NCBI RefSeq assembly: GCF_030408575.1
Contig: NZ_CP047047.1
Coordinates: 1-64,000 of the forward strand
Origin: Corynebacterium auris
Lineage (GTDB): Bacteria > Actinomycetota > Actinomycetes > Mycobacteriales > Mycobacteriaceae
DNA: 64,000 nt
Direction: 5' to 3'
A model generated the notes under the pieces. That model made no database searches. It saw nothing but the letters and a program-made list of their open reading frames with translations, and was not told the DNA's origin. Below, one piece after another: positions 3,296 through 54,443 of this stretch. The position numbers and the translations under genes were made by a program. Position 1 is the first letter of the stretch, and every line of letters begins with the position of its first letter.

Positions 3296-3298
3296 ACC

Positions 3299-4471: not shown

Positions 4472-5057
4472 CCTGATCAAGAACACCTTCGACACCTTGC
4501 GCTCCACCGCGCGGCGGCGGGGCGGGAAGCTACCCGACCTGAAACGCCAGGGCACGAGCGTGATCCCCCGGCGCAGCGCGCGGCGCGGGGACACAGCCCC
4601 GCAGGTGACGGTGCCCGGGCTCAACCTCGGGCACGAGGGCGCGCCGGCGTGGCGGGGACGGGGCCGACCCACCGGGCCCGACGGGCGCCCTCTCGGGCGC
4701 CGCACCACAGTGCAGGGCTTCGGGGTGCTGGTGAGCAAAGAGATCCGCGAGCGCGACTGGACCCACAACATCGCCTACGGCTGGGTCATGGGCAACTGGG
4801 AGGGGCTGGTCGGGGAGAAGATCGCCCAGCACACGAAGGTGGAGATGGTCAAAGACGGGGAGGTGTTCATCTCCTGCGACCAGACCGCGTGGGCAACCCA
4901 GCTGAAGTACATGCAGGGTACGGTCCTCGCCGAGATCGCCCGCAAGGTCGGGCCCGGCGTGGTGACGAAACTGCACGTCTACCCGCCGAAAACGAAGAGC
5001 TGGCGCTACGGCCCGCTGCACGTCAAGGGGCGTGGGCCGCGCGATACCTACGGCTAA
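4464..5057 (+). CDS. dciA: DUF721 / DciA-type helicase-associated protein
   Basis: This 197-residue protein of the DUF721 family sits in the conserved place between recF and gyrB. The family is recognised as DciA, which acts with the replicative helicase DnaB in bacteria that lack DnaC/DnaI. A basic, low-complexity N-terminal half precedes the conserved core (about 85-185), which contains [17 protein letters not shown] and the [14 protein letters not shown] segment. I chose the TTG at 4464 because the purine-rich GGAGGAGGGGAGG stretch lies just upstream inside recF. A GTG at 4468 is out of frame. The family call is firm. The helicase role rests on family knowledge. Confidence 0.9.
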
Positions 5058-5126
5058 CTCGCGCGTACCGTGGGTGGGATCACACGGTGTAAGATAGGAC
5101 GGGTTAAGGTCCCGATAGCGCAATAG

Positions 5127-8407
<3,281 letters not shown>

Positions 8408-38650: not shown

Positions 38651-38734
38651 GCCCGGGTGGCGGAATTGGCAGACGCGCTGGCTTCAGGTGCCAGTGTTCG
38701 CAAGAACGTGGGGGTTCAAGTCCCCCCCCGGGCA
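38651..38734 (+). tRNA. tRNA-Leu (CAG)
   Basis: Acceptor arms GCCCGGG and CCCGGGC pair fully. The anticodon stem CTGGC/GCCAG encloses TTCAGGT with anticodon CAG at 38685-38687. The long variable arm (TGTTCGCAAGAACGT) is the type II form for leucine. CCA is not encoded. A -10-like TATATT is at 38632-38637. Confidence 0.98.
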
Positions 38735-38742
38735 CGATCCGA

Positions 38743-39535: not shown

Positions 39536-40115
39536 CTTTGAAAAGTAGCCCAAAACGCTCTCCGGAAAGTAGCCCATCCGAAAAAGATTGGATGGGTGAT
39601 TTCTTTGGACCAATGGGCACAGATCCGTTACCTGCGTGGGCAGGGTTTATCGATACGCAAGATCGCCAACGAGGTTGGTTGCGCGAAGAAGACTTTCGAG
39701 CGGGCACTCGCTTCGGATTCGCGTTTGAAGTACCCGCCGCGTCGGGCTAGAGCCACGAGTTTCGCCGCCTTTGAACCACAAGTACGTGCGTTGCTGGCTG
39801 AAACTCCACGTCTTAACGCAAAAGTCATCGGACAACGCGTTGGGTGGACTGGGTCAGAATCGTGGCTGCGCAAAAACATTGCCCGGATCCGACCCGAGTA
39901 TCTTCCCGCAGACCCCGTGGACACGCTTACCCATCTTCCCGGGCGTGAAATCCAGTGTGACCTGACTTTTGCCGCCGGCGGGTTGCCCGATGCGAGCGGT
40001 GTGCACCGGCCATTCCCGGTGCTGGTGATGGCGGCATCGCATTCCCGATTCGCCGCAGCCTGTCTGCTTCCGACTCGCACAACTGATGATCTGATAGCTG
40101 GGATGGGTCAGGTCC
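39536..40115 (+). pseudogene. IS21-family istA fragment with left-end repeats
   Basis: Two similar direct repeats, AAAAGTAGCCC and GGAAAGTAGCCC (39540-39577), mark the multiple-repeat end typical of IS21. The GTG-started frame at 39596 encodes the N-terminal ~170 residues of an IstA transposase: a helix-turn-helix (LRGQGLSIRKIANEVGC), then LPGREIQCDLTF and VLVMAASHSRFAAAC, the start of the DDE domain. Homology ends near 40100-40115, where an unrelated fragment in the opposite direction begins. The rest of istA and all of istB are missing. Confidence 0.8.
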
Positions 40116-40294
40116 TTGGTGCGGGTGTCGCTGACTGTGGCGTAGTCAGCCCCGCAGACGCTGTCTGCTTGGGTGGACAAGGATCTGGTTGATGAAGTCC
40201 TGCAGCATCTGACGTGTGTCTGATCTGGGGATGCTTGGGTGAGCAGCTCATCAAGGTAGGCGGTCGGGTCGATATGATTGGGTCCAGCGGCCAT
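40100..40294 (-). pseudogene. IS256-family transposase N-terminal fragment
   Basis: On the minus strand a frame from ATG 40294 reads MAAGPNHIDPTAYLDELLTQ ASPD. After a frameshift it continues with MLQDFINQIL, then STQADSVCGADYATVSDTRT. This matches the N-terminus of a mutator-type (IS256) transposase but differs from the intact IS256 at 53059. It is broken by a frameshift and cut off at the junction with the istA fragment. Confidence 0.65.
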
Positions 40295-40384
40295 CGCGGT
40301 TATTCCTTTCGAGGAGATGTTGGAATTGATTCGAAAGGTACTGCGGTGGCCGCCTCACACATTCATGAGGCCCCTCACCGACAG

Positions 40385-40750
40385 TCACAGATACACCACG
40401 CTAACGGACGTAACCCTGGGATGTGACAGCTCATCGAGCGTGACTTCAAAGCCGTGCCCGACCGGCTGGTATGGGACCGGGAAGCTGGCATTGGGGCGAT
40501 ATCCCTGTTGGAGCACTCCAAGGCAGCAGAGATGGCTGCATAGCTCGCTCCGCTCAAACACATCGCCATGATGTCTCTGAAGTTGGCCATAAAGGCCCTC
40601 CTTGCAGTCAGAAAGTGGTGACACCCCGACACAGATTGAGCCGACGTCATCTACAAAAATGACCGAAAAAGAGGATCCCTACCACCTATCCGGAAAACCC
40701 CTACCAACTACGCAGATTGCCCCTACCAACTACACGGAAACGGCAGTCAG
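40385..40750 (-). pseudogene. IS21-type fragment, minus strand, with left-end repeats
   Basis: From ATG 40590 a minus-strand frame reads MANFRDIMAMCLSGASYAAI SAALECS, the helix-turn-helix start of an IstA-like protein, and then degenerates. Upstream of it, at 40681-40745, three spaced copies of a TAGTTGGTAGGGG-type motif (seen as CCCCTACCAACTA on the + strand) are the IS21 left-end repeats. The outermost ~50 bases recur inverted at 52965-53003. No function remains. Confidence 0.7.
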
Positions 40751-41101
40751 GTGCCACGACCCGCAGGACGGGCACTCATAGATCCGCAACGGGCCCGCAT
40801 ACGCGACCGCCACAGCGCGACATGCGCTGCGTCACCGTGGTCGTCATACTGCCGCTTCCCGGTGTCGGTGCAGAGGTCACGTGGCCTCGGAGGAGCACGC
40901 CTTTTCCTTCTCCGATGCCGAGCCACGCCCCGCCTCCTTAAGACCGATGCGGGCAGTCTAAGACCCTAAGAGTCGGGTGTCCGTGAGCCTTCAGAGCACG
41001 CTGCGCCCTATCCATAAGATGGTGGATGTGCCCCCGCCGTCCCGGCGATATCATCAGAGCATCGATACAAGTACCATCTGAGGACCGAAGGTGATGGCGA
41101 G
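40751..41101. other. Intergenic stretch with no recognised feature
   Basis: Between the IS21 end and the DCC-family gene I see no open reading frame with family support, no tRNA and no clear terminator. The promoter of the gene at 41102 should lie here. Confidence 0.5.
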
Positions 41102-41632
41102 ATGACGGCTGTTGATTTGGTATTCGATGGCCAGTGCGGTTTTTGCACACGCGCCGTACTCGCGATCAAGCGCCTCGATCGTAATGGGCGGGTCACAGTC
41201 CATCCGTTTCAACGTGACGGAGTGCTGGATCAGTTCGACCTCACCCCGCCGGATGTCCAGAACGCGGCGTGGGCAATCTCAGGTACTGGTCGATACGGTG
41301 GTGCCGGTTCCATCAACATCGCGCTAGATGCCGCGCTTGGGATTTCGCTGTTCTCCCGATTCTACCGCCTGCCTGGAGTCCGACATGCGCAGGACCGCGT
41401 GTATGGTTGGGTTGCTTCGCGACGTTATCTTTTCCGCGGAGTGACACCATGGTGCTCTGCGAACGCCGACGACTGCGGCGCTGCAGTACCGGGCGCATCA
41501 TGCGGCATCAATGCGCAGTCTACATCGGGGTCATGCCGATTGTCAGCGAGCATCAGTTGGACCATAACAGCCAGCGTATCGACAAATCGGCCGCATGACG
41601 GGGAGGAGCGCGCATGGATTTGTTCGTCGTAA
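41102..41632 (+). CDS. DCC-family (DUF393) thiol-disulfide oxidoreductase-like protein
   Basis: The 176-residue product starts MTAVDLVFDGQCGFCTRAVL. The DGxCxxC motif is the signature of the DCC family, a thioredoxin-like fold often encoded beside HTTM membrane proteins. The body (VTVHPFQRDGVLDQFDLTPP, SRFYRLPGVRHAQDRVY) matches the family through about residue 125. The last 50 residues look unlike the family and may result from a frameshift. An HTTM-like gene is at 45752 in the same island. The role could be redox handling of a peptide or membrane partner, which is inference. Confidence 0.82.
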   Translation: MTAVDLVFDGQCGFCTRAVLAIKRLDRNGRVTVHPFQRDGVLDQFDLTPPDVQNAAWAISGTGRYGGAGSINIALDAALGISLFSRFYRLPGVRHAQDRVYGWVASRRYLFRGVTPWCSANADDCGAAVPGASCGINAQSTSGSCRLSASISWTITASVSTNRPHDGEERAWICSS

Positions 41633-41946
41633 CTATCCAGGTGGTGCCGATGCTCTTCATTGCGATATTTCTCGATCGACGAGACGCCACGCCGGAGGAG
41701 CAGGGCGGAGGAATGCGCTACTTTCACCTAGTTGTGGCGCTGCTGGGTCTGGTAGCGTTCACGATCTCCGTGTACGTTGTCGGCGGCTCTGGAAGTCCGA
41801 CGACGTGGATGAGAATTGTCGTAACGAGCGCGTTGGGCTTCGCGATGGCAGCTTTGTCAAGCCAAGTTCTCTATCGCGTGCTACAGAACGGGCCACGCCG
41901 AATCGAGCACCGCCAGGATGCTCCACCAGGCGACCCAGCCTACTGA
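41614..41946 (+). CDS. Small membrane protein of unknown function
   Basis: The 110-residue product has an N-terminal helix (FVVTIQVVPMLFIAIFL), then two more hydrophobic segments (YFHLVVALLGLVAFTISVYV, IVVTSALGFAMAALSSQVLY) and a polar tail. The ATG at 41614 follows GGGGAGGAG, a strong ribosome site, and overlaps the end of the DCC gene by 19 bases. No family is recognised. It may be part of the same operon. Confidence 0.7.
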   Translation: MDLFVVTIQVVPMLFIAIFLDRRDATPEEQGGGMRYFHLVVALLGLVAFTISVYVVGGSGSPTTWMRIVVTSALGFAMAALSSQVLYRVLQNGPRRIEHRQDAPPGDPAY

Positions 41947-41968
41947 AGTTCGGTACCGGCAGCCATGG

Positions 41969-42574
41969 TTATAGCCAATCATGCTCCCGGGCATAACGCG
42001 CAGCCTCGTGACGTGTGGCCGCGTGTGTCTTCTGCATCGCGCGGGATAGATAATTGCGCACCGTACCTTCTGCTAGGTGCAGCCGAGAGGAAATTTCAGC
42101 GACCGAATACCCTTCGGTGGTTTCTCTGAGCACGTCAATTTCCCGTTCGGTCAGCGGACAGTCATCCATGACTGCTAACGCGGACACTTCAGGGTCTATC
42201 CAGCGGCGTCCTTGATGAAGGGCTTGCACAACCTCGCCTATCTGTGCGGGTTCCGCAGCTTTGCTCACGAATCCGCGCACACCCAAGGCAAGTGCTTTGC
42301 GAAGGATGCCTGGTCGCGCGTGGCGAGTCAGCATGAGGATCGTCTGCTCCGGGCATTCCGCTAGTATCGCTTCTGTCGCGTCGAGCCCGTCCATCGTTGG
42401 CATCTCCATGTCGATGACGAGTACATCGGGTCGATGCTGCAGGGTCACGGCTACGGCTTCGCTGCCGTCAGAAGCCTCCGCGACAACCGTTATGTCCGAT
42501 TCGAGCGGGAGGATGGCAGCGAGGGCGCTGCGCAGTAGGTTCTCATCATCGGCGAGGACGATACGCGTGGTCAT
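41969..42574 (-). CDS. LuxR/NarL-type response regulator
   Basis: The 201-residue regulator has a receiver domain (acidic pocket LADDE, phospho-acceptor Asp55 in VLVIDMEMP, conserved Lys in GFVSKAA). The C-terminal LuxR helix-turn-helix is TEREIDVLRETTEGYSVAEI, then GTVRNYLSRAM. It pairs with the DesK-like sensor kinase three bases upstream. The likely targets are the divergent ABC operon and the bacteriocin-like cluster; GTGAC/GTCAC palindromes lie in the intervening promoter. A broken homologue is at 39419. Confidence 0.92.
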   Translation of the reverse strand: MTTRIVLADDENLLRSALAAILPLESDITVVAEASDGSEAVAVTLQHRPDVLVIDMEMPTMDGLDATEAILAECPEQTILMLTRHARPGILRKALALGVRGFVSKAAEPAQIGEVVQALHQGRRWIDPEVSALAVMDDCPLTEREIDVLRETTEGYSVAEISSRLHLAEGTVRNYLSRAMQKTHAATRHEAARYAREHDWL

Positions 42575-42577
42575 TTT

Positions 42578-43675
42578 TCACCCTTTCTCAGTGCCGGGGA
42601 ACGTAGCAGCAGTGACAAACGACCTCCCGCACTTTGCTATCTCCATCTCTCCGCCCCGTTCACGAACGCGCGTTCTCAGTGCCGCTAGCCCACGCAACTG
42701 CGGTGCTGGCCCGGGGGCACACCCGTCGTTTGTGATTGCGATGGAAGCCCGATTCAGCACAATCCCTACGGACCGGGCTTCGGCGTGTCGCAAGATGTTA
42801 GTCGTCGCCTCGCGCAGAACTAGACTCATTGGTTCCTCGAACTCACCACGTATTTTTTCCACTTGATTGACATTTACGCGGATACCCGCTGCTTCGAAAA
42901 GATTTTTAGCGTTTTCAATCTCGGCGGAAAGAGTCAGACGTCTGTTGCCGTACGCTAACGTATTCGTCTGCGATATCGTCTCGGAAATCAGCTCCTGTAC
43001 CTGTCGGAGTTCCTTGTCTACTCGCGATGGATCCTCGCCGACGAGTTTCTGGGCCAGTGCTGTTTTCAGTTTGACCACATGTAGCGTGTGACCCTGGATA
43101 TCGTGCAGGTCGCTTGCGAACCGGACGCGTTCTTTCATCAAAGCCAGTTCAACCTCGGTCTGCCGCTTCGCGTCGAGCTCGGTGAACAGCCGCCATGCGG
43201 TTGCGTTAAGGCAGAATACGACAGTAAATAGAGCGGCTCCACCGATGGCGATAAGCAAATATGGGCCGGAGACCTCCGGCCCGCCGATAAGGGTGAGTAG
43301 GCCAGTAGCGAGGACGACAACCATGAGCAGACCAGCGGCGGGGCCTTGCCACCGGGGGAGTTTGGAAATTGTCACGGCACCCACTACGCAGAAACCTAAG
43401 GCAAACACCGGCCCAAGAGTGAATAGCGCGCCAAAAAGCCAGGTTATTTCGGTGACGACGAGGCCAATCATCGCCACCCGTAAATTCAGGGGGGTATGCC
43501 ATCTGGCCGCCTCCCAGACTGCCACGGCAATACTCGGGGCGGCTATCAGCGGCTGCCATATTGTCGTGGACCCAACCACGATCAGGACGCCAGCCGCGAT
43601 TCCCACGGCCACCACAAAGGTCAGGGTGGCGATCGACCGCATACGAGCCAGTGGGGTCGATTCCCTACGGCTCAT
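42578..43675 (-). CDS. Sensor histidine kinase, DesK/HisKA_3 type
   Basis: This membrane sensor has about five or six hydrophobic helices in the first 200 residues, then the phospho-accepting H-box FASDLHDIQGHTLHVVKL. A HATPase domain follows (LREATTNILRHAEARSVGIV, AALRTRVRERGGEMEI). I chose ATG 43675 (365 aa). A TTG at 43720 would extend it by 15 residues and overlap the small membrane gene by 29 bases. It forms a two-component system with the regulator at 41969. Confidence 0.9.
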   Translation of the reverse strand: MSRRESTPLARMRSIATLTFVVAVGIAAGVLIVVGSTTIWQPLIAAPSIAVAVWEAARWHTPLNLRVAMIGLVVTEITWLFGALFTLGPVFALGFCVVGAVTISKLPRWQGPAAGLLMVVVLATGLLTLIGGPEVSGPYLLIAIGGAALFTVVFCLNATAWRLFTELDAKRQTEVELALMKERVRFASDLHDIQGHTLHVVKLKTALAQKLVGEDPSRVDKELRQVQELISETISQTNTLAYGNRRLTLSAEIENAKNLFEAAGIRVNVNQVEKIRGEFEEPMSLVLREATTNILRHAEARSVGIVLNRASIAITNDGCAPGPAPQLRGLAALRTRVRERGGEMEIAKCGRSFVTAATFPGTEKG

Positions 43676-43691
43676 CGTTGATGGCTGCCCT

Positions 43692-43943
43692 TCACTGTTG
43701 GACTGATTTCTGCCGCTCAATGGTCTGCTGCAGTGCCCATGAGGCGAACGCGGCTGCGACGATAACAGTCACAGCGGCGGCAATCAGCCAGGCTGCGCCA
43801 GGGCTGTCGAAACTCGGAAGCCAGTCCGCGACCCAACCCGGTAGCAGGTCCCGCGTCGCGGGAATCAGCTCTAACAACATGATGGTGCTGATGACGCCTG
43901 CTGCAATGATTACAAGCGCGAGTAAATACTGAATAGCTCTCAT
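43692..43943 (-). CDS. Small two-helix membrane protein
   Basis: The 83-residue product has two membrane helices (YLLALVIIAAGVISTIMLLE and AAWLIAAAVTVIVAAAFASW) separated by a Pro/Trp-containing loop. The ATG at 43943 follows GAAAGGAAC eight bases upstream; a TTG seven codons earlier is less likely. It lies just ahead of the sensor kinase in the same direction and may help in sensing or immunity. No family is recognised. Confidence 0.75.
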   Translation of the reverse strand: MRAIQYLLALVIIAAGVISTIMLLELIPATRDLLPGWVADWLPSFDSPGAAWLIAAAVTVIVAAAFASWALQQTIERQKSVQQ

Positions 43944-44014
43944 GAGTACGTTCCTTTCAGACAACCGGGGCGTTAGGGCATCTTTACCCTATGTCGATCT
44001 TCCCGGCAGCAACA

Positions 44015-44065
44015 GTGACGCTGCGTCACTTCCGTGAGTCGCGGATGTCACTCATTATTGGTGAC
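44015..44065. promoter_or_regulatory. Pair of GTGAC/GTCAC dyads, likely operators
   Basis: GTGACGC-T-GCGTCAC (44015-44029) is a perfect palindrome with 7-base arms. A second dyad GTCAC-N9-GTGAC is at 44047-44065. Both lie between the sensor operon (-) and the ABC operon (+). They are good candidates for binding by the LuxR-type regulator at 41969. Confidence 0.6.
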
Positions 44066-44110
44066 GCCGCAGAACTGTCGAACTAGCGACTTCCGAAGTT
44101 AGGTAGTGGC

Positions 44111-44998
44111 ATGGGTGAAAAACCAGTGATTGAAATCAATGATCTCGCCGTCAGCTACGGTTCTTATGAGGCAGTTCGAGACATAACCCTGTCGGTCGCG
44201 CCGGGCGAATTGTACGCGCTGCTCGGAACGAATGGGGCGGGAAAGACCTCAACCCTCGAAACGATTGAGGGGCACCGGAAACCCTCACGCGGTACGGTGA
44301 GAGTCTTCGGCCTCGATCCCACTGATCGGCGGCGTGTGCGGCCGAGAGTCGGGATCATGCTTCAAGAAAGCGGATTCGCTCCTGACCTTACTGTCAGTGA
44401 GACCGTCCGTCTCATTGGCCGCCTCACTCGCCGCAGCGATGATTTGGATCGCGTTCTCGCTGTCGCAGATCTCACGGCGAAACGCACCTCGAAGGTCGCT
44501 CAGCTTTCTGGTGGTGAAAAGCGTCGATTGGATTTCGCAACCGCGATATTCGGCAGCCCTGACTTGATCTTTCTCGACGAGCCGACCACCGCGTTGGATA
44601 TCCACGCGCGTGACGCCCTGTGGGCTGCCGTCACGCAGATGCGCCACGGCGGAACAACGATCGTCCTGACCACACACTACCTCGAAGAAGCCCAACAGTA
44701 TGCCGACCGAATCGGTGTGATGCATCGAGGCCAGTTGCGCATGGAAGGCACCGTCACCGAACTCACGCAGATGCTGCCGGCCACCATTACCTTCCGCCTC
44801 CCACCCGGCACCGCCACACCGAGGGGAGCCGTTCGCCGCGACTCGGCTGGCGAATCCGCGTGGGTGATTGAGACCCAGGATTTGCAACGGGATCTCCACC
44901 TACTGCTCAATTGGGCCGCCGAACGCTCCATTGCTTTCGACGACCTCGCAGCGGGTCCCACCAGCCTTGACGACGTCTTCCGCGCCCTGAACGACTGA
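44111..44998 (+). CDS. ABC transporter ATP-binding protein (export type)
   Basis: This nucleotide-binding subunit (295 residues) has Walker A GTNGAGKTS, Q-loop IMLQESGFAPDLTVSE, signature LSGGEKRRLDFATAI and Walker B DLIFLDEPTTALD. A C-terminal extension follows that is typical of drug- and peptide-export DrrA/CcmA-like proteins. It likely works with the membrane partner at 45022 in peptide export or self-protection. Start ATG 44111. It is read divergently from the two-component genes. Confidence 0.93.
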   Translation: MGEKPVIEINDLAVSYGSYEAVRDITLSVAPGELYALLGTNGAGKTSTLETIEGHRKPSRGTVRVFGLDPTDRRRVRPRVGIMLQESGFAPDLTVSETVRLIGRLTRRSDDLDRVLAVADLTAKRTSKVAQLSGGEKRRLDFATAIFGSPDLIFLDEPTTALDIHARDALWAAVTQMRHGGTTIVLTTHYLEEAQQYADRIGVMHRGQLRMEGTVTELTQMLPATITFRLPPGTATPRGAVRRDSAGESAWVIETQDLQRDLHLLLNWAAERSIAFDDLAAGPTSLDDVFRALND

Positions 44999-45021
44999 CC
45001 GACGAAACAAAGGAGCCTAGA

Positions 45022-45729
45022 ATGCGCGCTATTGCTCTCAGTGAACTGACCCAGTTCTTCCGAAACCGCCTTGTAGCGGCCACCGCGGTGCTCGTGCCCC
45101 TATTCTTCGCTGTCGTGTTAATTGCCACACGAGACAACTTCGGAGGTTCAGCCGTCGTGGCAGCACTGGTCACCGTCGTCGTCCCAGCGATGGGCACGTA
45201 CATCACCGCGACCACCACCCTGGCGTCGCGACGCCAGACCCTCTTCCTCAAGCGGCTTCGTTCCACAGCGGCTGGGGACGCCGGAATTGTCGCCGGTATA
45301 CTGGTGCCTTTGGTCGTGATCAACGTCGTCCAACTCGCCGTCATTCTTGCCGCGTTGGCACTGATCGACCAGATGCCCGCCAACTTCGTCGGACTCATCC
45401 TCTGCGTCGTGACCATCGAAGCGCTCTTCCTCGGATTGGCCGTGGCCACGTCGGGATTCACGAACTCGCCCGATCACGCGCAAGTGACCTCTCTGCCGGT
45501 CTTCATCATCACCGTCGGTGTCGCCATGTGGATCGCCTTCACCGGGACCGAGGACCTTCTCATGGTCAAGCGGCTCATCCCCGGTGGCGCGCTCACGGAG
45601 CTGGTGATCGCGTCCTGGAATGGCATCGAACCAGCCTCAATGCTCGCCCTCCTTTTGCCGACGCTGGCCTGGGTCTTCGTCGCGTTCGTCGTCGCAAGTC
45701 AGCTCTTCCGTTGGGAGCCCCGCCGCTAA
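45022..45729 (+). CDS. ABC-2 type transporter permease
   Basis: The 235-residue integral membrane subunit has about six helices (LVAATAVLVPLFFAVVLIAT, AGIVAGILVPLVVINVVQLA, LLMVKRLIPGGALTELVIAS) in the layout of ABC-2 permeases. The ribosome site AAAGGAGCC precedes ATG 45022. It lies 23 bases after its ATPase and 22 bases before the HTTM-like gene, so all may be one transcript. Confidence 0.88.
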   Translation: MRAIALSELTQFFRNRLVAATAVLVPLFFAVVLIATRDNFGGSAVVAALVTVVVPAMGTYITATTTLASRRQTLFLKRLRSTAAGDAGIVAGILVPLVVINVVQLAVILAALALIDQMPANFVGLILCVVTIEALFLGLAVATSGFTNSPDHAQVTSLPVFIITVGVAMWIAFTGTEDLLMVKRLIPGGALTELVIASWNGIEPASMLALLLPTLAWVFVAFVVASQLFRWEPRR

Positions 45730-45751
45730 TTCTCAAGATCGGAGCAAGCAC

Positions 45752-46612
45752 ATGTTCACCAAGAGCCCTCATCGCGACCCCGTATCAGACACGGCCCGCG
45801 CTTTCTCGGCGGGGAGCAGGATCACCGCCGTCGGCACGTTCATCAGCGCCGCCGAAGAGTTTTCCCGCTCACGGGAGATGAGCGACACAGGTCTGTTCTC
45901 CTGGCCTATTCGACGCACCGCCTTTCGAACGTTGAGTCACCCGAAGCTCGAAAAGCCGCTGAGAACTCTTGGACACCCCCGATACCGCTGGTTAGTTGGC
46001 GCACGTGCCCTGGCTTCACTCGGGGTGATCGTCGCGCCTCGTCGATCCAAGTCACGCCTCGTGTCATTGTTCGCCCTCTCAGGCCTTTTGCTCGTGAAGA
46101 GCTACCGATCCTCCTACGGCTCCGATGGCTCGGATCAGATGTCCTTCATCTCCGCAGCATCGACGGCCATCGCTGAGACTCCGCGCCTGACGCCTCAACA
46201 GCAAGACGTGATGTCGGGGTTCGTGGCGTTCCAAAGCGTGCTGTCCTACTTCTCAGCCGGCGTCGCGAAGTTGCGGTCACCCGTATGGCGCGACGGCTCT
46301 GCGATCGAAGGGATCTTCCGGACCAAGACGTACGGCGACGAGTGGCTGTATCAGTTCGTCCACCGTCATCGGTGGGCACGGCTGACCTTGGCGTGGTCCG
46401 TGATCGTGGCCGAGACCATCTTCCCCATCATCCTCGCCCTGCCGCCCGTCGCACGGCGAGCACAGTTCCTCGTCGCCGCAGGTTTCCATGTCGGCAACGC
46501 GCGCTTCATGGGCCTCAATCGGTTCTTCTGGGCGTTTCTCGGCACATACCCCCACGTCGAACACAACGCAGCGTTCCTCCGCCAGGCATGGCAAGAGCAA
46601 TCACGAAAGTAA
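45752..46612 (+). CDS. HTTM-like polytopic membrane protein
   Basis: The 286-residue product has several helices. VLSYFSAGVAKLRSPVWRDG followed by SAIEGIF is the HTTM hallmark (membrane part of vitamin K-dependent carboxylase-like proteins). The C-terminal part contains WSVIVAETIFPIILALPPVA and NARFMGLNRFFWAFLGTYPH. In linaridin clusters a membrane protein together with an alpha/beta hydrolase is needed for maturation. The neighbour at 46619 is such a hydrolase. The ATG at 45752 is chosen; the longer frame runs into the permease gene. Confidence 0.82.
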   Translation: MFTKSPHRDPVSDTARAFSAGSRITAVGTFISAAEEFSRSREMSDTGLFSWPIRRTAFRTLSHPKLEKPLRTLGHPRYRWLVGARALASLGVIVAPRRSKSRLVSLFALSGLLLVKSYRSSYGSDGSDQMSFISAASTAIAETPRLTPQQQDVMSGFVAFQSVLSYFSAGVAKLRSPVWRDGSAIEGIFRTKTYGDEWLYQFVHRHRWARLTLAWSVIVAETIFPIILALPPVARRAQFLVAAGFHVGNARFMGLNRFFWAFLGTYPHVEHNAAFLRQAWQEQSRK

Positions 46613-46618
46613 CCAGCA

Positions 46619-47500
46619 ATGACCCCTCGTCTCGATCCAACCGCCCCGGCCTCCCCTCTTCCAGGTGCATTCGTAACTGTGACAGGCCGCTCCGTGCATG
46701 TCCTCACTCACCTCGAACCAGGCGGCAGCACCCCGAAAGTCGTCTTCGAATCCGCCCTCGGCTGCCCCTGCACCGAATGGGTCACCGTACAGAGAATCCT
46801 CGCAGGAAACGGGGTCAGCTCACTCGCCTACGACCGCCCAGGCGTCGGATGGTCTCCACCGGCGCGAGGCCCCCTGAACAGCGAGGCACAGGCAGCTCTA
46901 CTTAGCGAACTAATCGGTTCCGTTACGACCGCTCCCGTCGTACTCGTAGCTCACTCGGTAGGTGGACTGCTCGCACTGTCATTCGCTGGACGATTCCCGA
47001 AGCAGATTGCCGGAGTCGTGTTCATCGATTGCACTCACCCCGAGCAGCACCTCCGCTCATCTCGCCAGCGAGAAGCGTTGAGGAACTTGCGGCACCAGCT
47101 CCGCCGGGCACACCGACACCCTCGTCCGGACATCGCCGGGACGGACGTCGAGATGCTTCCCCCGCCATACGACGAGCTCACATACCGCATGGCGACAAGC
47201 CCACGAGGCATGCGGGCCGCATTGGCCGAGGTTGACCAGAGCACACGCGCATGGGCGCCTGACGCCGCGAACCATCGCCTGGACGGTACTCCGCTGACAG
47301 TACTCACTGCTGGTTCGGTCGCCTACGATGACCCTTCACATAGGGTATTGCAGCGCGAACTCGCGGCCCTGAGCGCTGTCGGTCGACATCACATCGTCCC
47401 AGAAGCCACCCATCAAGGCATCGTCATGAACCCCTTCCACGCTGGCAAGACCGCAGGCGCGATCTTGTCGATGGTCCCACAGCAGAAGGAGACGTCATGA
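46619..47500 (+). CDS. Alpha/beta hydrolase of the RiPP cluster
   Basis: The 293-residue protein has the hydrolase fold: VVFESALGCPCTEW near the oxyanion strand, YDRPGVGWSPP, and nucleophile elbow VVLVAHSVGGLLALSFAG with the catalytic Ser. VVFIDCTHPEQ and EATHQGIVMNPF would supply the acid and His. It is directly linked to the membrane gene upstream (6 bases) and overlaps the next gene by four bases. In type-B linaridin systems a hydrolase of this kind partners a membrane protein; assignment here is by context. Confidence 0.85.
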   Translation: MTPRLDPTAPASPLPGAFVTVTGRSVHVLTHLEPGGSTPKVVFESALGCPCTEWVTVQRILAGNGVSSLAYDRPGVGWSPPARGPLNSEAQAALLSELIGSVTTAPVVLVAHSVGGLLALSFAGRFPKQIAGVVFIDCTHPEQHLRSSRQREALRNLRHQLRRAHRHPRPDIAGTDVEMLPPPYDELTYRMATSPRGMRAALAEVDQSTRAWAPDAANHRLDGTPLTVLTAGSVAYDDPSHRVLQRELAALSAVGRHHIVPEATHQGIVMNPFHAGKTAGAILSMVPQQKETS

Positions 47501-48048
47501 ACACCGCAACAGCCAGCCAGCGCGGACGCCTATCCACAATCTTGTTCGCCGCGCCGGTCACGATCTGGGCCGCCGCGACGATCGCCGTCCAACTCGGCAG
47601 GGGCGAGAAGCTCGTGCGTCGAGTTGACCCGACCGGGCTCTACGTACCGGACTGGCGATTCTTCGCCCCGGCACCGGCCGAGCATGAGTATCACCTTCTC
47701 TATCGGCACGAACTCGAGGAGGAACTGACCCCCTGGCAGGAAATCGGCTTCTCACAACGACGCTCGCTGCTTCACCTCATCTGGGCACCCCATCGGCGAA
47801 GCGAGAAGGGCCTCTTCGATGCCGTCAGCGAGCTGATCCAGACGACGAAAGCCGCGAAGAACCTGGCCTCAATGAAAATCACCCCGGCCTACCTCGCGCT
47901 CTTGAACGTCGTCACGCATCAAGTCGTGGCCCCAGAAGAGGCCAGGAGGGTGCAGTTCCTCATCATTCGGGCCGCCGAGTACGAGCCGACAGTGATCCCT
48001 GACCCCTTGTTCTTATCCGACCTCCACCGAATCGAGGTGGCATCATGA
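47497..48048 (+). CDS. Unknown protein of the RiPP cluster, one membrane helix
   Basis: The 183-residue product has an N-terminal membrane helix (STILFAAPVTIWAAATIAVQ) followed by GLYVPDWRFFAPAPAEHEYH, a soluble domain with no recognised family. The overlaps (ATGA) at both ends show tight coupling to the hydrolase and methyltransferase. The counterpart in linaridin clusters would be the small unassigned maturation protein. This is inferred from position only. Confidence 0.75.
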   Translation: MNTATASQRGRLSTILFAAPVTIWAAATIAVQLGRGEKLVRRVDPTGLYVPDWRFFAPAPAEHEYHLLYRHELEEELTPWQEIGFSQRRSLLHLIWAPHRRSEKGLFDAVSELIQTTKAAKNLASMKITPAYLALLNVVTHQVVAPEEARRVQFLIIRAAEYEPTVIPDPLFLSDLHRIEVAS

Positions 48049-48809
48049 CCACAGCAGACCCGTCAACCGGGAGCTATGGTGACGAACTCATCGACGTCTA
48101 CGATCTCATGTACGCCGGTCGCAGTGACGTCCATCTGCTTCCGGATTTCTGTCGTCAGCTCGACCCAGCGGCAGCCCGCGTGCTTGAGTACGGCATCGGA
48201 ACCGGACGCCTCGCGCTCCCGATGGCCCGTTCCGGGTATGAGGTGGCCGGCATCGACTCCTCCGTCGCGATGCTCGATGTGCTCTCATCTCGCATTCAGG
48301 GGCTGCCCGTCACAGGTGTCCACGGCGACTTCCGCAGCACGGTGATATCAGAGCAGTTCGACATCGTCCTCATCCTCACCAACACGCTCTTCATGCTTCC
48401 AGCTCTCGACGAGCAGCGTCGCGTCATCACCCAGGCAGCGAACAACCTCACCCAGACAGGCAAGCTCGTCATCGAGACATACGACCCCCAAGTCTATCTG
48501 GAACGACAGTCGCCGTTCTCCGTAACGGTGCCACTGGCGCCATCCATGCTGCTGACCGACACAGTGATCACCGACCGTCGCGAGTGCAGGGTCACCCAGA
48601 TCCATGCCGTCTCCAGGCCCGACCGCATCGATACCATTACTGAGGAAAGCCACTGGCTCACGCCACGCGAACTCGATCTCGTGGCCGAGTCCGCCGGCCT
48701 CCAGCTCACGCACCGTTACGCCGACTTCGATCGGTCACCAGTCACCGAACACAGCCGTAACTTCGTGTCGGTTTACACACTCCGGACTGAACGTGACGGA
48801 GCACCATGA
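48045..48809 (+). CDS. SAM-dependent methyltransferase
   Basis: The 254-residue class I methyltransferase has motif I VLEYGIGTGRLALPMA, the acidic strand-2 end VAGIDSSVAM, and motif IV-like FDIVLILTNTLFML. Linaridins such as cypemycin carry N-terminal methylation by a methyltransferase of the cluster, so this gene may modify the peptide. It is coupled by four-base overlaps on both sides. Confidence 0.88.
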   Translation: MTTADPSTGSYGDELIDVYDLMYAGRSDVHLLPDFCRQLDPAAARVLEYGIGTGRLALPMARSGYEVAGIDSSVAMLDVLSSRIQGLPVTGVHGDFRSTVISEQFDIVLILTNTLFMLPALDEQRRVITQAANNLTQTGKLVIETYDPQVYLERQSPFSVTVPLAPSMLLTDTVITDRRECRVTQIHAVSRPDRIDTITEESHWLTPRELDLVAESAGLQLTHRYADFDRSPVTEHSRNFVSVYTLRTERDGAP

Positions 48810-49465
48810 TCACCGTGTTGATTCTCGACTCCGAGGCGGATAGCATCATCCTGCCATCCCGGATCGCCCTTCCTGATGGCGAGACCATCGTCGTCCGAAA
48901 AGGCGACGAGTACATTGGCATCGATGCTGTCCTAGCCGACTACGCCACTTTCTGCCAAACCAGACAGAAGCACACCGCAGCCTCACGGGTCGTTGACGCG
49001 CATCCCGTCATTGTGGCTTGCGCCGACCCGACCTACGCGGTCGACGCACTTCATGACGGCGCGGCAGCGGTCATTGGTCTTCCTGTGGACGCAGCTGAAC
49101 TCACAAGCGCTGTCTACGCGATAGCTAAACCAGGCAGGTACCTCTCACGGCGAATTCTCGCTGCCTCTGCGGCACGGACAGCAAGAGCCGCCGACGGGTC
49201 TCCTCATCTGTCGCCACGCGAGGTTCAGGTGCTCGCCCTCTTGTCAGCGGGCCTGTCGGATACTGATATCGCCACCGAACTCTTCGTCACTCCCGCGACG
49301 GTCCACACCCACCTGCTCAACCTCCGGCGGAAGCTCGATGCGCGGAATCGAACTCATGCGGTTGTCAAAGCTATCGAACTCGGCTTCATACCGCCCACGT
49401 TGCCGATTGCCGATGCCGCCACGCACGGTTCAGATCTCACGCGGAAAGGGAGCCGAACCCCTTGA
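48806..49465 (+). CDS. LuxR-type orphan regulator
   Basis: The 219-residue protein has a degenerate receiver-like N-terminal half (VIVACADPTYAVDALHDGAA without a clear phospho-acceptor Asp). The C-terminal LuxR HTH is LSPREVQVLALLSAGLSDTD, then VTPATVHTHLLNLRRKL. It closes the operon and faces the precursor-like gene. It may act without phosphorylation and control the cluster; the repeated promoter element at 49844 and 50804 is a possible target. Confidence 0.88.
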   Translation: MITVLILDSEADSIILPSRIALPDGETIVVRKGDEYIGIDAVLADYATFCQTRQKHTAASRVVDAHPVIVACADPTYAVDALHDGAAAVIGLPVDAAELTSAVYAIAKPGRYLSRRILAASAARTARAADGSPHLSPREVQVLALLSAGLSDTDIATELFVTPATVHTHLLNLRRKLDARNRTHAVVKAIELGFIPPTLPIADAATHGSDLTRKGSRTP

Positions 49466-49487
49466 TGATATGGGGTCCGACTCCCTT
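49446..49487. terminator. Strong bidirectional terminator
   Basis: Arms AAGGGAGCCGAACCCC (49446-49461) and GGGGTCCGACTCCCTT (49472-49487) around a 10-base loop are nearly perfectly paired. It serves the convergent LuxR gene (the arm overlaps its last codons) and the precursor-like gene. Confidence 0.85.
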
Positions 49488-49499
49488 GGGGGACGAGGC

Positions 49500-49745
49500 T
49501 CAGACGAGCATCGCGTCCTTGCGGGCGGCGAGCATCTCCGAGACGGGGGCGTCCTCATCGATGCCTGCCATCACCTCGTCCGGCCGGGAGCTGTGGTAGC
49601 CGGCGGCCGTCGTTGCGGTGGTGGCGGTCGTCGCCGTGATCGTCGTGGTGATGATGGTTGCGAGCACCGGCTCGCTGTCACCGTAGAGCGACCCGACCTG
49701 CTGAAGGTCCGCTTCGTCAGCGAACTTGGTGATGTTGTTCCTCAT
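49500..49745 (-). CDS. Linaridin-like RiPP precursor peptide (Thr-rich, no Cys)
   Basis: The 81-residue peptide has a leader-like N-terminal part (MRNNITKFADEADLQQVGSL). The following segment, residues 28-49, holds eleven Thr residues among seventeen at 30-46 (LATIITTTITATTATTATTA) and is followed by a polar tail to residue 81. There is no Cys, so lanthionine rings cannot form, but Thr can be dehydrated to dehydrobutyrine, as in linaridins. The ATG is preceded by AAAGGAG, a near-ideal ribosome site. The precursor call rests on composition and its place in the cluster. The exact leader/core border is unknown; the C-terminal 30 residues are atypical. Confidence 0.72.
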   Translation of the reverse strand: MRNNITKFADEADLQQVGSLYGDSEPVLATIITTTITATTATTATTAAGYHSSRPDEVMAGIDEDAPVSEMLAARKDAMLV

Positions 49746-49843
49746 GATCGATCTCCTTTGTCCGTCAGTCGGCTGATGGCCTATCGGGAAGCCTTGCGAG
49801 CAACCCCGATACCCATAGGCTACGGAGCCTGGCCCTCGTCATC

Positions 49844-49861
49844 ATCCACAGAACTATGGAT
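49844..49861. repeat. Shared promoter element, copy 1
   Basis: ATCCACAGAACTATGGAT, an imperfect dyad with ATCCA/TGGAT arms, lies 99 bases before the precursor-like gene and overlaps the 3' end of the hydrolase gene. It matches copy 2 (50804-50821) in 16 of 18 bases. Confidence 0.6.
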
Positions 49862-50747
49862 CTTGTGGCGCGCGTCTCATCCTTCTTCTGGAGGGATTGC
49901 TCGCATCCTTAGCAATGTCGGACCACAGCGCCTTTACGAGATACTCCTTGGTGGCGTTCGGCCCTCGAAGCATTGCATGCGCCGTGCCTGAGACTCTGCG
50001 TTCGAAGTCCACGACAATGCATGAACCGGAATCGCGCCCCTGTCCCGTGTGGTACACAACGCCCCTGCGCAGCACAAACCAGCCAATCCGCGATTCCAAC
50101 TCCAACGAGTCTTCTGCGAATCTCACTAAATCGTCCGTCGTGGACCATAGCCCTCCCGCGGGGCGATAGGCGCTTGTCGAGATTGCCCAAGGACGACGAG
50201 GTAGCCCAAGCAGCCTGGAGGCGAGGGGCTGACCGCTTTCCGGTGTGACCGTCACCGTTGGATACCGATGAGGAAGTAGCACAAAATCACGAACGAGGGT
50301 AAACCAATCAGTCGCCATTGCGCGCTCGATAGCGATTCCAAGCAGTGCGTATCCAACGTTCGAATACGCGAAGCCCGACGGACTCACCGGCCTATCCAAG
50401 GCGGTCAGGCTAGTTAAGAGTGTCGAAGCGTCAACCTCCCCATAAGGATCATGCAGCAACCACGACCGCGCGCCGGGATGAATATGCGGCAGTCCTGAGC
50501 GATGAAAGATCAAGTCTTGCAAAGTTGCATTGAGGCCGGTCAGTTCAGGCACTAGATCGCTCACCGGAGTTGACAGTGGGAGCTGTCCTTCTTCCGCCAA
50601 TACAGACGCGAGACGTGCGGTGACGGGCTTGGTGAGGGAGGCCCACTCTACAAGCGCTCCACCGCGATAGATGGAGCTGTGACTTAGAACCTCGCGCGAG
50701 CCGGATTGACTGCTGCGCACGGCGTATAGCCGCCGACTATCACGCAT
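49854..50747 (-). CDS. Serine hydrolase (beta-lactamase/DD-peptidase, S12-like)
   Basis: The 297-residue protein has the class C-type active site: SLTK with Ser37 and Lys40, YSN at 128-130, the FHRSGLPH loop, and YHTGQG near residue 240 in place of KTG. No signal peptide is seen, so it likely acts in the cytoplasm. It is read in the same direction as the precursor-like gene and lies upstream. A role in leader removal or peptide turnover is possible but unproven. Confidence 0.82.
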   Translation of the reverse strand: MRDSRRLYAVRSSQSGSREVLSHSSIYRGGALVEWASLTKPVTARLASVLAEEGQLPLSTPVSDLVPELTGLNATLQDLIFHRSGLPHIHPGARSWLLHDPYGEVDASTLLTSLTALDRPVSPSGFAYSNVGYALLGIAIERAMATDWFTLVRDFVLLPHRYPTVTVTPESGQPLASRLLGLPRRPWAISTSAYRPAGGLWSTTDDLVRFAEDSLELESRIGWFVLRRGVVYHTGQGRDSGSCIVVDFERRVSGTAHAMLRGPNATKEYLVKALWSDIAKDASNPSRRRMRRAPQDP

Positions 50748-50803
50748 AACACTTATCCACGCCTCTCACAACAGAAACCATAGTTCCAGGCGCGGGAGTC
50801 GAC

Positions 50804-50821
50804 ATCAACAGAACTGTGGAT
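50804..50821. repeat. Shared promoter element, copy 2
   Basis: ATCAACAGAACTGTGGAT lies 57 bases before the serine hydrolase start and matches copy 1 in 16 of 18 bases. A partial inverse copy, CCATAGTTC, is at 50778-50786, and CAGAACTGTCG occurs before the ABC operon at 44070-44080. Confidence 0.6.
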
Positions 50822-50918
50822 GCGAGGGATGGTCGCTGCCTCCTGATCGGCTCCAGTTCAGCTCACGCATGCTTGGCGGGGCCAAGGCTTTCTCTATCGC
50901 GTCAAGCTTTCCGACCGC

Positions 50919-51455
50919 TTACGCTGCCGAGTCATATCCGATAGGCTGAGGGCGCGCACAGTAGGTATCTCCCTTGAGCATGTTCGGCTCGTCGAGGAAG
51001 AGCACGCTAGGTTCGCCGAGCAGCGCACACGCCAAATCGAGGCGGCGCTGCTCTCCCCCGGAAAGCGCGCCCACCGTGACGTCGTCGCGGTGGCTTAGCT
51101 CCACTTCATCCATGACTTCGCCAACCGGTCGCGGCGTAGAGCAGGTGCCCGCCCACATTGCCAGCGATTCCTTTACCGTCAGCGCCTGTGGCAGCCCTCC
51201 CGATTGCAGCATGATCCCCAGGCGCGGGCGCACCTTGGCGTGCTGCTGGTAGGGGTCCATTCCGTTGATACGCACTCTGCCCCCGTCAGCTTTGGCCAGA
51301 CCCTCCACTACCTCGAGAGCTGACGTTTTGCCCGCCCCGTTTGTACCTAGCAGGCCGAAGACCTCTCCGGGGTGGACCGAGAAACTGATCGAGTCCACGG
51401 CGGTGTAGTCGCCGTACTTTCGCGTGAGTTTGTCTACTTCAATGTCGTTGCTCAT
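50919..51455 (-). pseudogene. Truncated ABC transporter ATPase
   Basis: From ATG 51455 the frame reads MSNDIEVDKLTRKYGDYTAV and contains Walker A GTNGAGKTS, IMLQSGGLPQALTVKES, signature LSGGEQRRLDLACALL and Walker B LFLDEP. The next residues, NMLKGDTYCARPQPIGYDSA, replace the D-loop and the rest of the domain, so about 100 residues are missing. It resembles the ATPase at 44111 and is probably an IS-linked deletion product. No partner permease remains. Confidence 0.82.
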
Positions 51456-51645
51456 GTTTACCAGCGTGCCTGTGTGGCGTTTCCGCCGGTAGAGATGCTT
51501 GTCACGAGTTCTGTGTGACATTTGTCAGCGAGCGGCGGCGGTCGGGGTGGCGCGCACAATTGCTTGATTAACGGCCTGCGGGGGCAACGCCTCGAACTGA
51601 ACCGTCATGGTTTTTGCCGCCTTCCAATGGGGAAGGAACAGCGCC

Positions 51646-52475
51646 GTGAAGAAGTCTTACGACCTCGAGTTCACGGGTCGGCCCGTGCGGCTGGTCCGGC
51701 AGCGCCGTGTTGATTCCCGTTTGCTGGCTGCGGCGTCAATGGCCATGGTGATTAGATGGGAGTTTTTCCGAGAAACGCTGCGTAATTGGGTTCAGCAGGC
51801 TGAGGTCGACGCCGACCACGCGCCCGGTGTCACCACCGAGGAGGAATAAGGAAGTGACCCGGCTGCGGGCGGCTGAGGAGATACTGAAAAACGCCATCGG
51901 CTTCTTCGCCGTCGAGCCAGCGTGTGGTGCCTGCGTACGCAAGGCGCGCAGGTTGTGACGGGGTTCTACCGGCGCCGACAGGGTTACTCGGTGGCGCACT
52001 GGGCCGTTAACCGTTTGACGTGAGTAGCCGGGATGGACGGTATCTCCAGGCGCCGGATAAAACCCCGCATAACGATTCCTGGGGCCCGGGGTGAGTGCCC
52101 CGGGTCTGCCCAAAAGGGATGTCACCGCCCAAGCCCGGCAACCGGATGTGTGTCGCCTTCATCGTCGGCTGTCATGCCCAGACCTTTCGCGGGGTGGAAC
52201 TGGTGCTCGCCCCGCTGCGCCTGGCGTTGTGGGAATGCGACCGAACCCACCACTCGGGTGCCGGCGGTTAAGTACACGGCGGTGGAATTCACCGACAACG
52301 TAGCCGTGCAGGAGATCGCGCCGCAGGTCTGCAGCGTGGGTGATGCCTATGACAATGCGCTGACGGAGTCGATCGTGGATGTCGGGCTTGCGACTATGCC
52401 GCCGGTGCAGTGTCACAACAACCGACGATCGCATTTTACCCTGCGCATGCTCCCTCCCGCGGAGTACAAAAGACC
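51646..52475 (+). pseudogene. Heavily decayed IS3-family element
   Basis: Frame pieces read VKKSYDLEFTGRPVRLVRQR, then FFRETLRNWVQQAEVDADHA (OrfA helix-turn-helix and leucine-zipper region). EFTDNVAVQEIAPQVCSVGD, AYDNALTESIVD and HNNRRSHFTLRMLPPAEYKR (late OrfB) follow in shifted frames. Stops and frameshifts throughout make it dead. It differs from the two IS3 copies at 54455 and 62238. The stretch from 51456 to 51645 holds nothing I can assign. Confidence 0.75.
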
Positions 52476-52670
52476 TACTGGGCTGGGCGCGCTACAATCA
52501 CTGAGCCCCGTGAAGGCGGCGACGCCAATCTAGAGGCGCAACAAAAGCGTGACGGTTCGCGACCATACTCACTCCTCTTCACCCGCGAAGCTCCGCGCAT
52601 CGAGCTCATCAGCAGCGTCGCCGCTCGCCTTTCCATTACCTCGGGTGCTGGACTTCGTGTTGCGACCGGC

Positions 52671-52800: not shown

Positions 52801-52974
52801 ATGACGGATTACCGTGCGGTGATGACGCTGCTGATTCGGCAGTGTTCTTACCGCCAGATTGAACACCAGCTCGGATGCTCGCACCGCGCGATTTCACGAG
52901 CGAACCAAGCACTGCGAAGCCTTGGTCTGACCACTGTTGAACAGGTCGCGGCGTTGACTGCCGTTTCCGTGTAG
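52801..52974 (+). pseudogene. IS21-family istA N-terminal fragment
   Basis: The 57-residue frame MTDYRAVMTLLIRQCSYRQI, then EHQLGCSHRAISRANQALRS, is the helix-turn-helix start of IstA with ribosome site AAGGAGTCC. It is cut at about 52966, where a different IS21 end (TGACTGCCGTTTCCGTGTAG) begins. The same ~50-base end is present inverted at 40696-40748. Confidence 0.75.
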
Positions 52975-52993
52975 TAGGTAGGGGCAATCCGCG

Positions 52994-53002
52994 TAGTTGG
53001 TA
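52994..53002. repeat. Target-site duplication of IS256, left copy
   Basis: TAGTTGGTA at 52994-53002 is repeated exactly at 54444-54452, directly outside the two ends of the IS256-family element. A 9-base duplication is usual for this family. Confidence 0.9.
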
Positions 53003-54443
53003 GAGGGTGTCAGGAAGTTTGTGTGTGAGGCTCTGATCCAGAAGGAGTTTCACTGATAATGACTACCGTGTCACCGAAGAAAGGCCATGACCCGAGCAGG
53101 GTCAACGAGATCAGCGCGAAGCTGATGGAAAACCCGGAAATCGCCGCACTGATCGGCGAGCTATCAACCTCCGTCGACGATGCCAGCGACCTGGTCAAAG
53201 GTCTATTGCAAGCCTCGATCAACGCGGGTCTGCAGGCGGAGATGGACGCCCATTTGGGGTACGGGCACTCAGATCGCGCGGCCAAAGCCCAGGTAAGCCC
53301 CTCAAACGGTGACAATCACCGCAACGGGTCGTACACCAAAACTGTGGGCACCGGCTACGGCCCGGTGGACATCACAGTGCCTCGGGATAGAGCGGGCACG
53401 TTTCACCCGGTCATGGTGCCGAAAGGGGCACGCCGGCTGACAGAGCTCGATGACATGATCGTCTCGCTCTACGCCGGCGGAATGACGGTACGCGATATCC
53501 AGCACCACCTGGCATCGACCCTGGGGGTGGACATCAGCCCGGATACCATCAGTACCATCACCGATGCGGTCCTCGATGAGGTGATGGTGTGGCAAAACCG
53601 TCAGCTCGATGAGTTCTACCCGGTCATTTTCCTCGACGCGCTGCGGGTGAAAATCCGCGACGGTCACCGGGTGGTCAATAAAGCCTGCTACATGGCTGTT
53701 GGCATCGACATCGACGGGACCAAACACATCCTGGGACTATGGATCGCCGACAATGAAGGGGCTGCATTCTGGGCATCCGTGTGCGCGGACCTGGCGAACC
53801 GTGGAGTCAATGACGTGTTCATCGTCTGCTGCGACGGGCTCAAAGGCCTGCCTGAGGCCGTGGAAGCGACCTGGCCGAACTCGATGGTACAAACCTGCAT
53901 CGTGCACCTGATCCGGGCCGCCAACAGGTGGGTGTCCTATAAGGACCGCAAATCTGTATCCAGCGCGCTGCGGCAGGTCTACACCGCACCGAACGAGGAC
54001 GCCGCTTGCGCCGCCCTCGATGCCTTCGAAGCCTCGGAACTGGGGCGGAAGTACCCCCAGTCGGTGAAGGTCTGGCGTGATGCGTGGGAGAGGTTTATAC
54101 CGTTTCTGCAGTTCCCGCCTGCAGCTCGCCGGGTGCTCTACACCACCAATGCCATCGAGTCGCTTAACGCTGAGCTGCGGAAAGCGACCCGCAACCGTGG
54201 CCAATTCCCCACGGATGCTGCGGCGTTGAAGACGCTGTGGTTGATGGTCTGCAACATCGAGGACAAACGCGCCGCCCAACGCGCGAAAAAAGCGAAGCGG
54301 GCAATCGACTGCAACGGCTATATTGAAGGGGCGAAAACCTCAGGGTGGAAACAAGCCATCAACCAACTATCCGTGGCCTACCCAGACCGGTTCGCCAACT
54401 ACTTGTAAACCAAGCCCCCGCACACAAACAAACGGACACTCTC
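53003..54443 (+). mobile_element. Complete IS256-family insertion sequence
   Basis: The element is 1441 bases. Its ends are imperfect inverted repeats: left GAGGGTGTCAGGAAGTTTGT, right (reverse complement) GAGAGTGTCCGTTTGTTTGT. A perfect 9-base target duplication flanks it. With an intact transposase it appears to be a recent, possibly active insertion into older IS debris. Confidence 0.92.
53059..54408 (+). CDS. IS256-family (mutator type) transposase
   Basis: The 449-residue transposase is full length. MENPEIAALIGELSTSVDD and GLQAEMDAHLGYG form the N-terminal part. The catalytic domain has VIFLDALRVKIRDG (first Asp), FIVCCDGLKGLPEAVEATWP (second Asp) and TTNAIESLNAELRKATRNRG (Glu), giving the DDE triad of the mutator family. 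The ATG at 53059 is within the element ends. Confidence 0.96.
   Translation: MTTVSPKKGHDPSRVNEISAKLMENPEIAALIGELSTSVDDASDLVKGLLQASINAGLQAEMDAHLGYGHSDRAAKAQVSPSNGDNHRNGSYTKTVGTGYGPVDITVPRDRAGTFHPVMVPKGARRLTELDDMIVSLYAGGMTVRDIQHHLASTLGVDISPDTISTITDAVLDEVMVWQNRQLDEFYPVIFLDALRVKIRDGHRVVNKACYMAVGIDIDGTKHILGLWIADNEGAAFWASVCADLANRGVNDVFIVCCDGLKGLPEAVEATWPNSMVQTCIVHLIRAANRWVSYKDRKSVSSALRQVYTAPNEDAACAALDAFEASELGRKYPQSVKVWRDAWERFIPFLQFPPAARRVLYTTNAIESLNAELRKATRNRGQFPTDAAALKTLWLMVCNIEDKRAAQRAKKAKRAIDCNGYIEGAKTSGWKQAINQLSVAYPDRFANYL

Follow-up and report, generated by a model that had tools for sequence, protein, structure and literature searches.

The described system closest to the locus considered here is that of corynaridin from Corynebacterium lactis, a linaridin whose cluster comprises crdA, G, E, L, T and C (PMC9927463). 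Linaridins are ribosomally synthesized and post-translationally modified peptides (RiPPs). That paper describes a PxxxTP cleavage motif as conserved in linaridin precursors and a short-chain dehydrogenase/reductase (SDR) as typical of type B linaridins, and states that it is unclear how exactly the putative linaridin modification enzymes work (PMC9927463; further literature: PMC10880069, PMC7794033, PMC5719810, PMC6579920, PMC7438953, PMC8549736, PMC10683109, PMC12188740, PMC5343777, PMC9146348, PMC12589487). Here we analyse a stretch of 64,000 nucleotides of Corynebacterium auris (positions 1 to 64,000 of contig NZ_CP047047.1; "the window"), which very probably holds a biosynthetic cluster, spread horizontally, for a RiPP of the linaridin class, in a type-B-like variant. 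Judged from its sequence, the cluster appears to be an intact, mobile-looking, type-B-like linaridin set of a new subgroup; its peptide product has not yet been observed. Being compact and intact, and with a core unusually dense in Thr, the cluster offers a clean system in which to study linaridin modification.

The locus encodes homologues of linaridin maturation proteins

A run of genes on the plus strand (44111-49465) encodes an ABC ATPase, an ABC permease, LinG, LinE, LinL, a methyltransferase and a LuxR-type regulator, and the reading frames from LinE to the LuxR regulator meet in three successive 4-base overlaps. On the minus strand lie a kinase/response regulator pair, the gene for an 81-residue peptide and, upstream of the peptide, a hydrolase with a penicillin-binding protein (PBP) fold. 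An earlier note, made from the DNA letters alone, had read this region as a probable linaridin cluster, and the genes that it listed (HTTM protein, hydrolase, unknown protein, methyltransferase, LuxR regulator, ABC exporter and two-component system) are all where it had placed them. The names LinG, LinE, LinL and LinM were assigned by homology. Percentages below are identities to homologues in the clusters of Microbacterium marinilacus (L002) and Brevibacterium sandarakinum (L003).

49500-49745, minus: LinA-like precursor, 81 residues (L002 60%, L003 40%; family alignment)
45752-46612, plus: LinG, HTTM membrane protein (Pfam HTTM E 2.9e-6; match to CrdG; fold search)
46619-47500, plus: LinE, alpha/beta hydrolase (Pfam Abhydrolase_6 6.9e-15; motifs; weak match to CrdE)
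47497-48048, plus: LinL, DUF5819-like, below cut-off (hhalign to CrdL; family alignment)
48045-48809, plus: LinM, S-adenosylmethionine methyltransferase, CypM relative (matches to PDB 7wzg and 7wzf)
48806-49465, plus: LuxR-type regulator (Pfam GerE 6.6e-17, the sole domain above cut-off)
44111-44998, plus: ABC transporter ATPase (Pfam ABC_tran 6e-29; L002 69%, L003 56%)
45022-45729, plus: ABC-2-like permease partner (L002 70%, L003 39%; sub-threshold Pfam matches only)

For comparison we used a locus in another Corynebacterium genome (L091 in G596) that fits the published corynaridin locus: six genes in the order A-G-E-L-T-C, with a 69-residue precursor that carries PxxxTP at residues 29-34 and a core with seven Thr plus Ser-29. 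LinL is 27% identical to CrdL of this locus (BLASTP E 3e-14; hhalign 99.4%) and LinG is 35% identical to CrdG (E 1e-31); LinE matches CrdE weakly (36% over 58 residues, E 3e-4) and the methyltransferase matches CypM. The linaridin interpretation of the earlier note is thus supported, and the lack of similarity to linaridin maturation proteins that it had named as a ground for giving it up was not what we found.

Related loci carry the same trio of LinG-, LinE- and LinL-like genes. We examined 44 loci with their flanks (two sets of 22 and 20, plus L091 and L092); all three genes were present in 36, and removal of four near-identical ones (L067, L006, L063 and L007) left 32, a count that covers the extended places and leaves aside roughly one third of those in two sets of search results. 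A small open reading frame with PxxxTP occurs in 23 of these 32 trio loci, compared with 1 of 160 shuffled regions, in which two-base blocks only were preserved. At L020 and L022, the trio lies downstream of precursors that score 85.2 and 59.6 bits in the NCBIfam model of the cypemycin family (NF033752, cut-off 35); the model matched neither the two other precursors tried nor the corynaridin-type, L002, L003 and window peptides. The HTTM protein and hydrolase are joined in a single open reading frame of 609-632 residues in 8 of the 48 HTTM rows of relatives. Pairs of an HTTM and a LinL-like gene with no tblastn match to the hydrolase were also seen (L017, L021, L023, L061, L066 and L076), fused in L017 and L066.

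Comparison with described linaridins places the locus near type B, with amendments. Like corynaridin, it combines LinG, LinE and LinL homologues with ABC transport and a Thr-rich precursor, in the same genus. Unlike corynaridin, it has a methyltransferase, a two-component system, a LuxR regulator, a DCC protein, a PBP-like hydrolase and a two-gene type of ABC transporter, and its precursor lies on the opposite strand, has a longer predicted core (53 residues) and shows no evident similarity to that of corynaridin beyond the motif. The SDR (LinC) that marks type B was not found by tblastn with CrdC (E 1e-5) in the window between 36 and 56 kb. A CrdC-like SDR occurs in only 3 of 32 sequences searched (L091, L004 and L006), so it is not general among trio loci. 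Legonaridin, a type B linaridin compared here by its description in PMC9927463, shares LinG/E-type genes and a methyltransferase, and differs by an SDR gene that the window lacks. The type A linaridins cypemycin and grisemycin share the trio, as found beside NF033752 precursors, and a CypM-like methyltransferase; the window peptide differs in being free of Cys, including at its C-terminus, and a Pfam scan of 18 proteins revealed no decarboxylase (LinD). The linaridin reading is amended as follows: PVLATI rather than PxxxTP, no SDR typical of type B, and rarity in the genus with a horizontal look. For the L091 precursor itself (L091:9476-9685, minus), the calculated mass of a core C32-V69 that has lost eight waters is 3979.20 Da, whereas the published corynaridin mass is 3961.19; the gap of 18.01 Da corresponds to nine waters, or to a mass stated without the terminal water.

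A Thr-dense precursor peptide

The peptide described in the earlier note was read directly from the minus strand: 81 residues, no Cys, eleven Thr within residues 30-46, and AAAGGAG ahead of the gene. Its Thr density is unmatched in the window, where 1 of 875 stop-to-stop frames of at least 40 residues reaches 11, or even 9, Thr per 17 residues. Because homologues lie in the matching L002 and L003 clusters and conservation is lowest at third codon positions in both comparisons (0.52 versus 0.73/0.73 for L002; 0.46 versus 0.59/0.62 for L003), the pattern of conservation indicates that this frame is a real gene. By analogy with corynaridin, leader cleavage is predicted after P-V-L (residue 28), which would divide the peptide as follows.

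49745-49662, minus: predicted leader, residues 1-28
49661-49503, minus: predicted core, residues 29-81, beginning ATIITTTIT
49658-49608, minus: Thr block, residues 30-46 (from the sequence)

The predicted core A29-V81 has a calculated mass of 5436.67 Da without modification; 11 dehydrations and two methyl groups would bring it to 5266.59 Da, and loss of water from all 14 Thr/Ser together with two methyl groups to 5212.56 Da. The motif at the predicted cleavage region is PVLATI in the window and L002 peptides and PVLATP in the L003 homologue. In Prauserella cavernicola (L004) and Saccharomonospora (L006), the precursors that accompany this trio carry PVLCTE, PVLCTI, PVFCTT and PVLCTA, and the closing Pro of the motif is therefore not universal. 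Across 19 aligned precursors, four positions never vary (Ala-9, Pro-26, Val-27 and Arg-75 in window numbering); the middle is variable, yet the C-terminal part retains a box like ELLxxR, which reads EMLAAR in the window. The PVLCT/PVFCT precursors, several of them Thr-rich, stand in tandem before linaridin-type genes, three at L004:2936-4259 and two at L006:3628-4251.

Modifying enzymes and a possible mechanism

From the gene set we infer a pathway, and a role of its product as a bacteriocin. The membrane enzyme set LinG-LinE-LinL would dehydrate core Thr, up to 11 within residues 30-46, to dehydrobutyrine. The leader would be cut off past P-V-L, and the newly exposed N-terminal Ala would be methylated by the CypM-like methyltransferase. 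The ABC pair at 44111-45729 would serve in peptide export and/or immunity of the producer, and the two-component and LuxR regulators would govern expression. The methyltransferase assignment draws on PDB matches to CypM (7wzg) and YunM (7wzf), with E 4e-22 each, behind CcbJ (9.5e-24); methylation of the peptide N-terminus by LinM is predicted from these relatives. LinE carries AHSVG (109-113) and THQ near 263, and LinL is modelled as one long N-terminal helix followed by a domain with W-R-F-F-A-P (pLDDT, a model confidence score, 91).

LinG scores 27.5 bits in Pfam HTTM, against a cut-off of 27.7. A fold search predicts a fold like that of the animal vitamin-K carboxylase GGCX, with Lys173 at the position of GGCX Lys218, and with Trp and Phe at the positions of Trp223 and Phe286; both the predicted fold and a lysine at the catalytic place are thus present in the model. 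Unlike GGCX, LinG has no lumenal carboxylase part and does not keep the Glu-binding Asn159/His160. More tentatively, LinG could be a membrane enzyme of the vitamin-K-carboxylase type that uses menaquinol and oxygen to form a strong base, which would abstract the Thr alpha-proton and so allow water to be eliminated, with LinL as its partner. It is possible, though rather doubtful, that LinG and LinL form a split vitamin-K-carboxylase-like enzyme, with LinL in the role of the lumenal part downstream of the HTTM, in which removal of the alpha-proton from Thr yields dehydrobutyrine and reprotonation yields D-residues such as type A linaridins contain. The cluster would then present an extreme substrate, with up to 11 sites per 17 residues, and quinone recycling could fall to the DCC thiol oxidoreductase. 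Weighing against this chemistry, a narrow lysine-tryptophan pattern is shared by 11 of the 20 further HTTM loci (22 were fetched as an HTTM/SdpB control set, two being the window's own), including two SdpB proteins above their family cut-off (L120 and L121). The lysine motif is common to much of the HTTM superfamily, and the motif alone therefore does not establish base chemistry in LinG. The predicted GGCX fold gives a concrete, falsifiable mechanism, with Lys173, oxygen and menaquinone as its elements.

Distribution and possible horizontal transfer

The L002 and L003 clusters share with the window the two-component pair, the ABC pair, LinG, LinE, LinL, the methyltransferase, the LuxR regulator, the PBP-like hydrolase and the peptide. 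In L003 the peptide gene has the kinase side on one flank and the ABC gene on the other; gene content is thus conserved although position is not. Of 242 genomes of the genus, 4 encode a LinL-like protein (the genome of the window itself, G606, G572 and G596), and of 101 searched for the peptide, 2 have it (the window's own and G606); both peptide-bearing genomes carry the cluster, contrary to the conservation without a cluster that the earlier note had named as a refutation. LinL is 92% identical in Auritidibacter ignavus (P0002), and a protein search gave one further peptide copy, 98% identical (P0019), probably from the same Auritidibacter ignavus genome. The cluster is a bacteriocin-type gene set of Corynebacterium that, judging by these Auritidibacter proteins, occurs in more than one bacterial family; related sets exist in Microbacterium and Brevibacterium.

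The block 39658-52659 recurs in G606 (13,002 bp at 99.7%), where the adjoining blocks are arranged differently. Its flanks also match (98.1% and 99.8%); the two genomes are therefore close kin, and sharing alone is no proof of transfer. The GC fraction is 0.60 in the cluster region compared with 0.67 outside, and a resolvase-type helix-turn-helix (HTH) protein (39596-40192) and a Mutator transposase (53059-54408) lie nearby. Taken with the lack of the cluster in the remaining genomes searched in the genus, the near-identical Auritidibacter proteins and the block order in G606, these features suggest transfer; the cluster is rare in the genus and looks horizontally acquired.

A 61-base inverted repeat, 90% complementary (40689-40749 and 52955-53015), lies about 1 kb inside one end and 0.3 kb outside the other end of the shared block, and a tRNA-Leu (CAG) gene (38651-38735, plus) stands about 0.9 kb ahead of it.

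Alternative explanations

That the locus is a decayed or silent linaridin island, its genes retained through recent transfer with no product made, would fit its rarity in the genus, the nearby Mutator-type transposase and a second ABC ATPase that appears truncated. Yet the window has open frames for LinA, G, E, L, M, LuxR and ABC, the LinL and peptide frames of G606 are without a stop, and LinG, E, L and M are open in L002 and L003, which makes decay unlikely.

Other RiPP or toxin systems fit less well. The best NCBIfam model of the methyltransferase is daptide_MTase (NF041820, E 4.8e-22), as would be expected if it dimethylated the C-terminal amine of a daptide, but its 78.6 bits fall short of the cut-off of 175 and CypM and YunM are within its three best PDB matches. 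The daptide hallmarks given in PMC10036551 (alcohol dehydrogenase, aminotransferase, RiPP recognition element (RRE) protein and site-2 protease) are lacking among the cluster proteins scanned, as is an oxidative decarboxylase, and the C-terminal residue of the peptide is Val instead of Thr; a daptide is hardly credible here. Nor does an SDP-like system (SdpA/SdpB/SdpC), in which the HTTM protein would mature a hydrophobic toxin without dehydration, account for LinL/LinG relatives that accompany CypA-type and PxxxTP precursors. LinG does match export_SdpB (TIGR04033, E 1.4e-4) and has the HTTM lysine motif in common with SdpB, but it reaches 21.6 bits against a cut-off of 178.4, and the genome has no SdpA, so we consider this very improbable. 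A linaridin-class cluster is the reading that we retain.

Accessory genes and other loci

The genes around the biosynthetic set are as follows.

42578-43720, minus: HisKA_3 sensor kinase (Pfam; L002 53%, L003 41%)
41969-42574, minus: response regulator (Pfam Response_reg and GerE; L002 75%, L003 74%)
43692-43964, minus: small protein preceding the kinase, probably membrane (L002 46.5%, L003 40%)
41102-41632, plus: DCC1-like thiol-disulfide oxidoreductase (Pfam DCC1-like 1.6e-14; L002 55%; L011, L012 and L015 29-33%)
41614-41946, plus: small protein, probably membrane (homologue in L002)
49854-50747, minus: beta-lactamase/PBP-fold serine hydrolase (Pfam Beta-lactamase 1.8e-26; L002 44%, L003 40%)
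50919-51521, minus: second ABC ATPase, 200 residues (Pfam ABC_tran)

No homologue of the DCC protein or of the small protein at 41614-41946 was found in L003; both are present in L002. The PBP-fold hydrolase carries SLTK/YSN/HTG motifs, with SxxK and YxN in the window, L002 and L003 clusters alike, and its PDB relatives include D-alanine carboxypeptidase, Ulm16 cyclase, alkaline D-peptidase and ClbP. Since type A linaridins contain D-residues, according to PMC10373908, our guess is that it is a candidate D-peptidase or self-protection/immunity enzyme. The second ABC ATPase has an odd C-terminus and appears to be a truncated second transporter gene. A third type of linaridin-like locus within the genus is that of G572, where LinG-, LinE- and LinL-like genes (2913-6057) follow a pair of short, Ala-rich precursors that carry PVTATP and PVMATP (L092:2428-2871).
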